Source: Candidatus Nitrosocosmicus arcticus | GTDB lineage: Archaea > Thermoproteota > Nitrososphaeria > Nitrososphaerales > Nitrososphaeraceae | Length of the DNA: 64,000 nucleotides | Direction of reading: 5' to 3' | Assembly (NCBI RefSeq): GCF_007826885.1 | Contig: NZ_ML675583.1 | Coordinates: 62,001 to 126,000 of the forward strand | In this document: piece after piece, positions 41,162-62,504 of the stretch | How the letters are laid out: every line of letters begins with the position of its first letter | How positions within the stretch are numbered: the stretch's first letter is position 1 | The notes under the pieces: model-generated | The model's database searches: none | Told to the model about the DNA's origin: nothing | What the model saw: only the letters and a program-made list of their open reading frames with translations | Made by a program: the position numbers and the translations under genes

Positions 41162-41289
41162 GGGGTCGTAGCGAAGCCAGGCATCGCAACGGGCTCCAGA
41201 TCAAATAATGGGCAATTATTGAAGAAACCCGTGGATCAGGGGTTCAAATAATATAAGTACATATATTAGAACAATTCCCTTCGGCCCCA
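41162..41289 (+). tRNA. trnW: tRNA-Trp (CCA) with two introns
   Basis: Exons 41162-41199, 41227-41247 and 41275-41289 join to a 74-base tRNA: acceptor GGGGTCG/CGGCCCC, D-stem GCGA/TCGC, anticodon stem ACGGG/CCCGT with loop CTCCAGA (anticodon CCA), T-stem AGGGG/CCCTT, discriminator A. Intron 1 (41200-41226, 27 bases) is at the canonical 37/38 site; the flanking CTCC/GAAG helix has one mismatch but both 3-base bulges fit. Intron 2 (41248-41274, 27 bases) lies in the T-loop; GTTC/GAAC forms the 4-bp helix, with bulges AAA and AAT and a perfect 7-bp inner hairpin (TAATATA/TATATTA). Confidence 0.93.
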
Positions 41290-42305: not shown

Positions 42306-42384
42306 TAGTAGTATATAAATAATATAGTATAAACCACTAAATGTAAATACTACTATGTTTATACTACTGGTGGTATAGTAGTAT
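42306..42384. promoter_or_regulatory. Array of TAGTAGTAT elements between the RHH gene and the transposase
   Basis: TAGTAGTAT occurs at 42306-42314 and 42376-42384 (plus) and as ATACTACTA at 42347-42355 (minus), with ATACTACT at 42361-42368; a shorter ATAGTAT lies at 42324-42330. The last two full elements form an inverted pair that overlaps the transposase start codon (42383). This is the kind of site RHH proteins bind; regulation of both divergent units is inferred. Confidence 0.65.
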
Positions 42385-43483
42385 GAGCAATAACCAAATA
42401 TATTTTAGAATGGAAAGAGGACTTTTAATCTCACAAGAAGGCTCTATCATCAAGAATACCGAGAATAGTTTTACCGTCCGTTCTCAAACCTTTACGGACA
42501 AGCGATATGAAGTCCAAGTCTTAGAATCTATTGGGGTTTGTAGTTGTCCAGACTTTGAGTACCGAAAGATAGAGTGCTGTAAGCATATCTATGGTGTAAA
42601 ATTGTGGCTTGAAAACCAACCTAAAATCTTTGCAGAGGATGCAATCAAGTGCGACCAGTGCGGTTCAATCAGGGTTATGAAATACGGTCTTTACAAGGAG
42701 AAACAGGTATACAAGTGTAAGGACTGTCAGCACAAATTCAAAGAGCCATCACTGTTAAAGGGATTAAAGTTCGACCCCGAAATCGTTACCTTTGCTTTAG
42801 ACCTTTACTTCTCTGGACTGTCACTAAGAAAGGTAGCTAGAAATCTAAACGACCACTTTGAGTTAGACCTTAGCTTCTCAACCGTCTATTCATGGATACA
42901 AAAATACATCCCTAGAATATCAGAAAATGTTAACAGTCTAATCCCTCAATTGTCAAATCAGTGGCATGTTGACGAGCTTTTCGTAAAGATGAAGGACGGC
43001 GAAACAAGTAAGGGACAAAGCGGATTAGCTTACCTCTGGAATGTAATGGATAGGGAATCAAGATTCTTGATTGCTTCTAAATTGTCTGAAAAAAGGGATA
43101 CTAATGGAGCTATCCAAGCCTTCAATGAAGCCATCAAAAACAGTCATGGTAACAAACCTCAAACTATCTACACTGATGCATTAAGGGCTTATAGAGAAGG
43201 TGTTAAGCAAGTTTTTGGACAGCAGACAGACCACGTTGCCAAGTGTGGTATCAATAAGCCTCATGCCAACAATAATCGAATTGAAAGGCTAAACGGCACA
43301 TTGAGAGAAAGAGTAAAAGTACAGAGAGGGTGGAAAAGCCACAAGTCAGCAATTGCAGAGGGTCAACGCATTTACTATAACTTTGTCAAGCCACATGAAG
43401 CATTAGGGGGTAAGACGCCTGCGGAGCAAGCAGGAATAATAGATAAAAAGAATAGTAAAGATAAATGGAAGAATATTTTATGA
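42383..43483 (+). CDS. DDE transposase with N-terminal SWIM and zinc-ribbon domains
   Basis: A 366-residue protein. Residues ~35-75 form a SWIM zinc finger (CSCPDFEYRKIECCKH), ~86-115 a zinc ribbon (CDQCGS...CKDCQ), and ~135-345 an IS6-like DDE integrase with WHVDELFVK, TDALRAYREG and NRIERLNGTLRERVK giving the D-D-E triad. An HTH-like segment GLSLRKVARNL precedes the catalytic core. G+C is visibly higher than in neighbours (about 45 % in a sampled 100-base piece), suggesting acquisition. I could not identify terminal inverted repeats, so the element boundaries are unknown. Confidence 0.87.
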   Translation: MSNNQIYFRMERGLLISQEGSIIKNTENSFTVRSQTFTDKRYEVQVLESIGVCSCPDFEYRKIECCKHIYGVKLWLENQPKIFAEDAIKCDQCGSIRVMKYGLYKEKQVYKCKDCQHKFKEPSLLKGLKFDPEIVTFALDLYFSGLSLRKVARNLNDHFELDLSFSTVYSWIQKYIPRISENVNSLIPQLSNQWHVDELFVKMKDGETSKGQSGLAYLWNVMDRESRFLIASKLSEKRDTNGAIQAFNEAIKNSHGNKPQTIYTDALRAYREGVKQVFGQQTDHVAKCGINKPHANNNRIERLNGTLRERVKVQRGWKSHKSAIAEGQRIYYNFVKPHEALGGKTPAEQAGIIDKKNSKDKWKNIL

Positions 43484-53153: not shown

Positions 53154-53969
53154 ATGCCCTTTTTGATTGATGATATTAATTACGCACAAAAGGAATTAAA
53201 CACTTTTAGATTTAGAACCTCGGCCATCAATGATGGGTCCATCCATGAGAGATTCATTTTTCCTTTTCTTTGTGGTTCATATTTCACATACAGAAAGGTA
53301 GACGTAGAAAGAATAACCTCAATAGCTAAGGCGGTATCAAAAGATCCAACTTACTTAGATGTTGGATGTGGTTATGGCGATTTCTTGGAAAAAATTATTC
53401 AACATTTACCTAATGCAGAAGGTATTGAAAAAAGCGCGGACATATTCTTCAAATTAGGAAGATATAAGCCAGATTATATAAAAATTGGTGATGCATATAA
53501 TGGAATAGATAAAAAATATGATCTAATATTTGTTGGATGGATGGAGCCTGGAGTGGATTACAGGGATAGAATTGCTGCAAGTACAGATGTAATAATTACA
53601 ACTTTGGATCAAGGTTTGAGCCTTGCAGCAGAGTTTGAGGGACATGGGTTTGAAAAAATCGCAAGTTGGATAACTCCATCCTGGGAGGATATCAATACAG
53701 AAATAACTAACAAGTATTATTCAAAAATATCAAATGGAACCATTGAATTACTAAAAGAGCTAAGGGGAGCGCACAATTTATGGTATATTTATTCTAAACC
53801 AAAATACAAAGACACCATAAAAGAAACATTAAGAAAATCTAGTAAAAAAGATTACAATAGGGATGTTTATGAGCATGAAAAAATCTTGGATGAATGTGGG
53901 TTTAGTTATAATGAAGTGCTCCCATCAAACCCCGATATTTGCTTGTGGAAAATAAATTTTGAAGAATAA
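53154..53969 (+). CDS. SAM-dependent methyltransferase, tandem copy 1
   Basis: A 271-residue class I methyltransferase with the SAM-binding motif LDVGCGYGDFL around residues 63-73 and an acidic motif II region (EKSADIFF). The segment from residue ~31 to ~228 is identical to copy 2, while the first 30 and last ~43 residues differ. Its stop overlaps the ATG of copy 2 by one base (TAATG). The substrate is unknown; the family signature is generic. An ATG at 53154 starts it. Confidence 0.85.
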   Translation: MPFLIDDINYAQKELNTFRFRTSAINDGSIHERFIFPFLCGSYFTYRKVDVERITSIAKAVSKDPTYLDVGCGYGDFLEKIIQHLPNAEGIEKSADIFFKLGRYKPDYIKIGDAYNGIDKKYDLIFVGWMEPGVDYRDRIAASTDVIITTLDQGLSLAAEFEGHGFEKIASWITPSWEDINTEITNKYYSKISNGTIELLKELRGAHNLWYIYSKPKYKDTIKETLRKSSKKDYNRDVYEHEKILDECGFSYNEVLPSNPDICLWKINFEE

Positions 53970-54641
53970 TGCCTCCAGAAATAAATGATTTAGGTGTTGC
54001 ATCAAATGCGTTAAAAGAGTTTAGAAAATACTCTATTTCGTCGCATCATGAGAGATTCATTTTTCCTTTTCTTTGTGGTTCATATTTCACATACAGAAAG
54101 GTAGACGTAGAAAGAATAACCTCAATAGCTAAGGCGGTATCAAAAGATCCAACTTACTTAGATGTTGGATGTGGTTATGGCGATTTCTTGGAAAAAATTA
54201 TTCAACATTTACCTAATGCAGAAGGTATTGAAAAAAGCGCGGACATATTCTTCAAATTAGGAAGATATAAGCCAGATTATATAAAAATTGGTGATGCATA
54301 TAATGGAATAGATAAAAAATATGATCTAATATTTGTTGGATGGATGGAGCCTGGAGTGGATTACAGGGATAGAATTGCTGCAAGTACAGATGTAATAATT
54401 ACAACTTTGGATCAAGGTTTGAGCCTTGCAGCAGAGTTTGAGGGACATGGGTTTGAAAAAATCGCAAGTTGGATAACTCCATCCTGGGAGGATATCAATA
54501 CAGAAATAACTAACAAGTATTATTCAAAAATATCAAATGGAACCATTGAATTACTAAAAGAGCTAAGGGGAGCGCACAATTTATGGTATATTTATTCTAA
54601 ACCAAAATACAAAGACACCATAAAAGAAACATTAAGAAAAT
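53244..54641 (+). repeat. 595-bp direct repeat spanning the two methyltransferase genes
   Basis: 53244-53838 and 54047-54641 (offset 803) read as identical throughout by eye, whereas sequence immediately outside both ends diverges. The edges fall inside coding sequence of both copies. Confidence 0.9.
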
Positions 54642-54781
54642 GTCTTAAACATGAATGCCAAAAAGAAATACACACATATGAATTTGAGGATGTTTTGGAT
54701 GACGCAGGATATGGATATTTAGAGAGCATTAAAACTAGTAATGAAGAGTATCTGTTGTGGAATATTGTTTTTACTATGTAA
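53969..54781 (+). CDS. SAM-dependent methyltransferase, tandem copy 2
   Basis: A 270-residue paralogue of the preceding gene, sharing the identical core (SAM motif LDVGCGYGDFL near residue 62) but with its own N-terminus (PPEINDLGVASNALKEF) and C-terminus (KHECQKEIHTYEFEDVLDDAGYGYL). The two tails are alignable at low identity (EKILDECGFSYNEV against EDVLDDAGYGYLES), so the copies are old duplicates whose centre was recently homogenised. One-base overlap with copy 1 suggests coupled translation, possibly a heterodimer. Confidence 0.85.
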   Translation: MPPEINDLGVASNALKEFRKYSISSHHERFIFPFLCGSYFTYRKVDVERITSIAKAVSKDPTYLDVGCGYGDFLEKIIQHLPNAEGIEKSADIFFKLGRYKPDYIKIGDAYNGIDKKYDLIFVGWMEPGVDYRDRIAASTDVIITTLDQGLSLAAEFEGHGFEKIASWITPSWEDINTEITNKYYSKISNGTIELLKELRGAHNLWYIYSKPKYKDTIKETLRKCLKHECQKEIHTYEFEDVLDDAGYGYLESIKTSNEEYLLWNIVFTM

Positions 54782-61020: not shown

Positions 61021-62406
61021 TTGTTAATGAATAATTGGAATAAACCTAGTGACGAGAAAACTCTGCATATAGGATTTGATGATACTGATTCAATAAATGG
61101 AAGATGTACTACCCATCTATCTTATTTAATATCAAACATGTTAATAAGAAAATTTCAGGTAGAATTTGTTGATTTTCCACTCTTAATAAGACTAAATCCC
61201 AATGTTCCTCTTAAAACTAGAGGAAATGGTGCAGTTTGTTTAAGGATAAGAGGAAGAAATTATGAAAAAATCAAAGAGGAGATCACTCATACCATAGAGA
61301 ACTACTCCGAATTAGAAAACGGAGCCAATCCAGGTTTGGTTTTTTATGAAGGGAATGGCATTGGCAAAGACTTGACATCGTTTAGTGAAAGTGCTATGGA
61401 TACCATATTAAGTAAACAACTAGCCATAAAAATAGCTATTAAGAATAATATGCAATTCAGTATTTTTGGAAAAGGATATGGAATTGTAGGTGCACTAGCA
61501 GCAATAGGGTGTCTTTTAGAGTCGGATCACACATTTGAAACAATTGCATACAGAAGCAAAGAAAATATTGGAACTAACAGAAAAACGGATGACTTTAAAG
61601 TAAAAAAATTAAGCGAGGAATCATATCCATATACCTACAATAATTTCGACATTAAAAATAATAGAATACTTATTACTCCTCGTGGTCCTGACCCAGTGTT
61701 TTGCGGTATTAGAGGAGAAGACCCCTTAATAACCACATTATTTCTAAAAAACTTGTGTATCGAAGAAGAATTAGACGGCTATATGATATTCAGATCCAAT
61801 CAAGGAACGAATTTACATCTAGTCAAAGAGAAGAGTGGAACTAACATTAAACCATATACCGCAGGACGTATAACTTGTCAGGTTGCATCTAAACCATCCG
61901 TAATTAATGGTGGACATGTAATATTCAAAATAAAGGACGGGTTTGGTGGTATGTTACCCGTTGCGGTTTACCAACCTACAGGTCTGACAAAGATTGCAAG
62001 TATGTTAGTAATTGGAGATAGGATCGAGGTAGGATATGGTGCACATCTAAAATCAAATAATCAATTTACCCTCAACTTAGAATACCTCATAATCAAAGAA
62101 TTAGCAAGAGTATATAACATTAGAAATCCCGCTTGCGAGAAGTGCTTTAAGAATATGAAATCAGAGGGAAAGAATAAAGGATATCAATGTCACATTTGTA
62201 AAACAAGAATTAGAAATAGTGGAAAAATAAAGACGGAAAAAGATAGAAAACTGAAGTCTGGTCTATATATTCCGGAACCTATTGCGCATCGACATCTTAC
62301 CAAACCATCATCCAGATATGGTATGGAAAAGCGATTTAATAGTATGGAAATAAGTTATCTGTTAAGAAGTATAAAGTGGATAAAAGATAGCGGGGGGTTG
62401 ATTTGA
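61021..62406 (+). CDS. tiaS: tRNA(Ile2) 2-agmatinylcytidine synthetase
   Basis: Attaches agmatine to C34 of tRNA-Ile(CAU) so it reads AUA. The 461-residue protein opens with GFDDTDSINGRCTTHL, contains the kinase-like GKGYGIVGALAAIGCLLESDH and LITPRGPDPVFCGIRGEDP segments, an OB-fold (VINGGHVIFKIKDG) and a C-terminal zinc ribbon with CEKC and CHIC. TTG at 61021 and ATG at 61027 are both possible starts. Its last 19 bases overlap the 3' end of the tRNA-iMet gene on the other strand. Confidence 0.94.
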   Translation: MLMNNWNKPSDEKTLHIGFDDTDSINGRCTTHLSYLISNMLIRKFQVEFVDFPLLIRLNPNVPLKTRGNGAVCLRIRGRNYEKIKEEITHTIENYSELENGANPGLVFYEGNGIGKDLTSFSESAMDTILSKQLAIKIAIKNNMQFSIFGKGYGIVGALAAIGCLLESDHTFETIAYRSKENIGTNRKTDDFKVKKLSEESYPYTYNNFDIKNNRILITPRGPDPVFCGIRGEDPLITTLFLKNLCIEEELDGYMIFRSNQGTNLHLVKEKSGTNIKPYTAGRITCQVASKPSVINGGHVIFKIKDGFGGMLPVAVYQPTGLTKIASMLVIGDRIEVGYGAHLKSNNQFTLNLEYLIIKELARVYNIRNPACEKCFKNMKSEGKNKGYQCHICKTRIRNSGKIKTEKDRKLKSGLYIPEPIAHRHLTKPSSRYGMEKRFNSMEISYLLRSIKWIKDSGGLI

Positions 62407-62504
62407 ACTTACGGCTGGCTTTATAAGCACAGAAACCGCTCTGCGGGTTATGAGCCCGCCGGGATAACCTAGCCCCTAAAAAGGTCTGGCTTCCCCACCC
62501 CGCT
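62388..62504 (-). tRNA. Initiator tRNA-Met (CAT) with two non-canonical introns
   Basis: Exons 62504-62486, 62468-62434 and 62408-62388 join to 75 bases with the archaeal initiator acceptor AGCGGGG/CCCCGCT, anticodon stem GCGGG/CCCGC with loop CTCATAA, and T-stem GGTTG/CAACC. Intron 1 (62469-62485, 17 bases) sits in the D-loop: helix AGCC/GGCT, bulges AGA and AGG. Intron 2 (62409-62433, 25 bases) interrupts the T-stem at 52/53: helix GCGG/CCGT, bulges TTT and AAG. Both predicted cuts restore the stems exactly. There is no canonical 37/38 intron. The 3' end overlaps tiaS. Confidence 0.93.

Follow-up and report, generated by a model that had tools for sequence, protein, structure and literature searches.

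The sole initiator tRNA-Met gene of the Candidatus Nitrosocosmicus lineage is almost certainly interrupted by two bulge-helix-bulge (BHB) introns, located at positions 18/19 and 52/53 of the tRNA, which are predicted to be removed by splicing. In the 64,000-nucleotide stretch of Ca. N. arcticus DNA that was analysed (the window), this archaeal initiator gene occupies the minus strand at 62504..62388, and a cloverleaf is obtained only once segments of 17 and 25 nucleotides are removed. Splicing itself we infer from features that were observed directly: the sequence and structure of the gene, its conservation and co-variation among relatives, its single copy in the assembly, and the genes for the enzymes.

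Read along the minus strand, the gene consists of AGCGGGGTGGGGAAGCCAG (exon 1), ACCTTTTTAGGGGCTAG (intron 1), GTTATCCCGGCGGGCTCATAACCCGCAGAGCGGTT (exon 2), TCTGTGCTTATAAAGCCAGCCGTAA (intron 2) and GTTCAAATCAACCCCCCGCTA (exon 3). Exon 1 (62486..62504, positions 1-18), the sequence of which is identical across most family members, supplies the 5' strand of the acceptor stem (AGCGGGG), the 5' strand of the D-stem (GGGA) and the start of the D-loop (AGCCAG); it is followed by the 17-nt intron 1 (62469..62485), which lies in the D-loop at 18/19. Exon 2 (62434..62468, positions 19-52) holds the remainder of the D-arm, the anticodon arm GCGGG-CTCATAA-CCCGC with the CAU anticodon at 62452..62450, the variable loop and the T-stem strand GGTT. 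The 25-nt intron 2 (62409..62433) then divides the T-stem at 52/53, and exon 3 (62388..62408, positions 53-73) provides G53, the T-loop TTCAAAT, CAACC, the 3' strand of the acceptor stem (CCCCGCT) and A73, with no CCA encoded at its end. Archaeal initiators are marked by an A1:U72 pair and by three G:C pairs closing the anticodon stem; both marks are present here, with AGCGGGG pairing to CCCCGCT and three G:C pairs adjoining the anticodon loop (29-31:39-41). Given the CAU anticodon, these marks and the cloverleaf, the predicted product is an archaeal initiator tRNA-Met, for which charging with methionine and binding of aIF2 are likewise predictions.

Each intron is embedded in a BHB motif in which every predicted cut (^) falls after the second base of the bulge. 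For intron 1, the central helix pairs A14-G15-C16-C17 with GGCT, the 5' and 3' bulges are AG^A and AG^G, and the inner helix is CCT:AGG. For intron 2, the central helix pairs G47-C48-G49-G50 with CCGT, one of the four pairs being G-U, the bulges are TT^T and AA^G, and the inner helix is CTG:CAG; because its outer helix is weak, intron 2 was classed as a relaxed BHB (HBh' type). When the introns were removed in silico, the resulting 75-mer folded into a clean cloverleaf (ViennaRNA) and was identified by ARAGORN as tRNA-Met(CAT); no call was obtained for the unspliced gene or for either singly spliced form. By itself an ARAGORN call discriminates poorly: when 17-nt and 25-nt segments were deleted at arbitrary places, 209 of the 1,851 distinct products were also called tRNA-Met. 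Given this permissiveness, a strict stem test was used in its place as the test of uniqueness; when the 25-nt deletion was tried at 23 placements, a perfect T-stem resulted at just one. At intron 1, cuts made one or two bases earlier yield the same product (17_54, 18_54 and 19_54) and are inseparable by sequence, and the BHB geometry favours 18/19 among them. The original prediction had held that the gene folds only after removal of 17- and 25-base segments, flanked by 4-bp helices with 3-base bulges cut after the second base, and had placed the exon junctions at 62486/62468 and 62434/62408; the folding results and both motifs bear this out, and the junctions, recomputed from the sequence, agree to the base.

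Comparison with relatives provided what we regard as decisive evidence against a chance arrangement. The pattern GGGCTCATAACCC was found in 62 of 70 genomes of the family (Nitrososphaeraceae), and near-identical initiator genes are present in three Candidatus Nitrosocosmicus records (L176, L220 and L230). Among 57 parsed family initiator genes, 47 contain both a D-loop and a T-arm intron (the latter at 52/53 in 45 genes and in the T-loop in two), and 10 contain a T-arm intron only; in L035 and L063 the T-arm intron is in the T-loop, not the T-stem. Most members of one genus (g6) have no D-loop intron, the empty site reading AGCCAG followed directly by GTTATCCC, and in several of these the T-stem intron is replaced by a T-loop intron. 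The predicted mature 75-mer is identical in 34 genomes from six genera, and the intron sequences and lengths differ.

Pairing within the introns was assessed on 57 distinct D-loop introns (related families included) and 42 distinct T-stem introns, in which the central helix was complete (4/4) in 44 and 41 cases, respectively. Over the first three pairs of the inner helix, 139 of 171 cells were paired in the D-loop introns, against a shuffle mean of 92 (sd 5), and 123 of 126 in the T-stem introns, against a shuffle mean of 102 (sd 2.3), relatedness being ignored in both comparisons; sliding the D-loop register by +2 still left a fairly high 123 of 171 cells paired. The inner helix of the T-stem introns reaches up to 11 bp, with pairing kept between wholly different sequences, and is a single pair in a few introns (ungapped count). 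Compensatory changes were observed in the intron helices of relatives.

The anticodon arm has one exact match in the genome to which the window belongs (22 contigs, 98.3% complete), and two one-mismatch matches (L032 and L033) have surroundings that are not tRNA-like. Searches of the whole assembled genome (98.3% complete, so that a copy in an assembly gap would escape them), allowing up to one mismatch in the anticodon arm or up to three in the 5' exon, revealed no second initiator, and thus no sign of the intact copy elsewhere that the original prediction had thought worth looking for. The other CAU tRNAs, L003 and L004, begin with GGGCCCA and GCCGGGG, respectively, are without A1:U72 and are intronless; they are, by these sequence features, elongator-type or Ile2-type genes and not initiators. 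One initiator match each was found in three congeners (G006-G008, with contigs of 2.8, 3.0 and 3.4 Mb), and the initiator was single-copy throughout the family searched, an extra match in G042 (L070) having no initiator sequence around it.

These results bear directly on the reading of the locus as a decayed initiator pseudogene whose work is done by an intact copy elsewhere. Such decay would explain why the locus goes undetected by ARAGORN and by the Rfam tRNA model at gathering score; against it, the family-wide single copy and the conservation of the exons letter for letter make a pseudogene exceedingly improbable, and an intact copy elsewhere was rejected by the whole-genome pattern searches. 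Because both tools miss the gene, annotations may lack an initiator. Of almost negligible probability is the alternative that an unusual mature tRNA keeps the two segments, its D- and T-arms being enlarged by them: with its segment present, the T-stem is unable to form where it normally would, BHB geometry and co-varying helices are found in both segments, one or both are missing in relatives at exactly these junctions, and the splicing enzymes are encoded.

It is also conceivable that the introns, besides being spliced, serve a separate function, such as regulating the supply of initiator or providing stable circular RNAs. Archaeal tRNA introns are known to circularise, and those described here are retained family-wide even though loss is possible. 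We consider such a function highly improbable, however, given that the loops and lengths drift freely with only the splicing helices kept, that the D-loop intron is missing in most of one genus, and that some members exchange the T-stem intron for one in the T-loop.

Predicted splicing of both introns finds its counterpart in the gene content of the genome, which includes two tRNA endonuclease paralogues, L126 (alpha) and L127 (beta), and an RtcB ligase gene. In L126 (L126:1231-1785), which matches the catalytic subunits of Crenarchaea (2cv8, E 5.8e-46; Aeropyrum 3p1z), the Tyr, His and Lys sites read VY, DHAPF and VKKQF, respectively, so that all three catalytic residues are present. The N-terminal segment GYYGKPLGISKPK of L126, which may be the Crenarchaea-specific loop region near the active site, aligns with Aeropyrum GYYGQPLDVEKPR and is also common to Sulfolobus. 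In L127 (L127:1126-1815) the catalytic His is missing from the aligned site. One apparently catalytic and one degenerate paralogue, together with RtcB, fit the expectation for a broad-specificity (alpha-beta)2 enzyme. Thaumarchaeota have alpha2beta2 endonucleases (PMC4090602), and relaxed BHB introns are efficiently removed only by (alpha-beta)2 and epsilon2 enzymes (PMC6379350). In the pathway we propose, the two-subunit (alpha-beta)2 endonuclease would cleave behind the second base of every bulge and RtcB would join the exons; processing of the ends and addition of CCA would give one tRNA of 75 nt plus CCA. For each start of translation, the cell would then need both splicing events.

The gene adds one more case to a known type of archaeal tRNA intron, here common to a whole family, and is not new in kind because splicing-dependent initiators and non-canonical introns of Thaumarchaeota are already known. 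The tRNAscan-SE 2.0 survey reports 107 non-canonical introns in Thaumarchaeota genomes, with a maximum of three introns per archaeal tRNA gene (PMC8450103). The introns described here resemble those in their position outside 37/38, their shortness, their BHB or relaxed BHB form, their occurrence as several per gene, and their clade; no difference in kind is apparent, and the initiator gene is not singled out in the passages of the survey consulted (PMC8450103). The initiator tRNA of Thermofilum pendens, which is permuted, joined at 59/60 and carries an intron at 37/38 (PMC3218864), likewise needs two BHB splicing reactions to mature, as predicted here, although that gene is circularly permuted whereas the present one has normal order and sites at 18/19 and 52/53. 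The split initiator tRNA of Nanoarchaeum equitans, joined at 37/38 (PMC3218864, Table 1), similarly makes initiation dependent on tRNA splicing, which in our case would be the cis-splicing of two introns rather than the trans-splicing of two transcripts. Genes with two or three BHB introns at varying sites, served by an (alpha-beta)2 endonuclease, are also known in Thermoproteales (Pyrobaculum), in another lineage and in other tRNAs (PMC4033280, PMC4390854). Our literature search found nothing specific on initiator introns in Nitrososphaera or Nitrosocosmicus. The interest of the present case lies in a family of ammonia-oxidising soil archaea in which the only initiator tRNA would need to be spliced twice.

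The presence of two non-canonical BHB introns in the initiator, with none at 37/38, which the original prediction had called striking, is upheld by sequence, structure and relatives alike; the epithet is not, as this is the usual arrangement within the family (47/57), other tRNAs here also bear introns, and to lack a 37/38 intron is a clade-specific trait, with an additional intron at that site in many relatives. Across the order, four intron sites are used, and an initiator contains between none and three introns. Within the survey of order and class, some are intronless (e.g. several Nitrosopumilus) and others have a D-loop intron only, D-loop plus 37/38 introns, or T-stem or T-loop introns; three introns (D-loop, 37/38 and T-loop) are found in L149, L151, L155, L160 and L168. 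With these five included, three apparent introns each were noted in the initiator genes L143, L149, L151, L152, L155, L160, L168, L174, L217 and L286 of other Nitrososphaeria lineages, the D-loop, 37/38, variable/T-stem and T-loop sites being combined differently. This order-wide mosaic is more interesting than the single gene, and close relatives with differing intron sets offer a good case for studying gain, loss and movement of tRNA introns. It is very unlikely, in our estimation, that ammonia-oxidising archaea control translation through the splicing of their sole initiator and that intron gain, loss and shift across the order reflect selection and not drift; such selection might, for example, favour escape from tRNA-cleaving toxins or integrating elements.

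At least 15 of the 40 Rfam tRNA matches in the genome exceed intronless length, and some tRNAs apparently contain two introns. In the window, a tRNA-Trp(CCA) gene (41162-41289, plus strand) apparently has introns in the anticodon loop and T-loop, and a Leu-type tRNA of 118 bases (63061-62944, minus strand), approximately 440 bases upstream of the initiator gene, has an apparent anticodon-loop intron. Elsewhere, a tRNA-like sequence of 63 bases (L289, G000:C2:84359-84421) has acceptor, D- and T-arms without an anticodon arm and is probably a remnant. A TiaS-like gene (tRNA-Ile2 agmatidine synthetase; 61021-62406, plus strand; NCBIfam NF040849, E 1.5e-98, below the cut-off) converges on the initiator gene from the opposite strand, the two overlapping by 19 bases at the 3' end of the tRNA gene. 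Two tandem, adjoining ORFs of 271 and 270 aa (53154-54781, plus strand) with a methyltransferase-like motif (GCGYGDF) are identical over a long core and differ at both ends, suggesting recent duplication or gene conversion, and an intact-looking transposase gene lies at 42383-43483 (plus strand), its closest model being the IS6 family, just below the cut-off.
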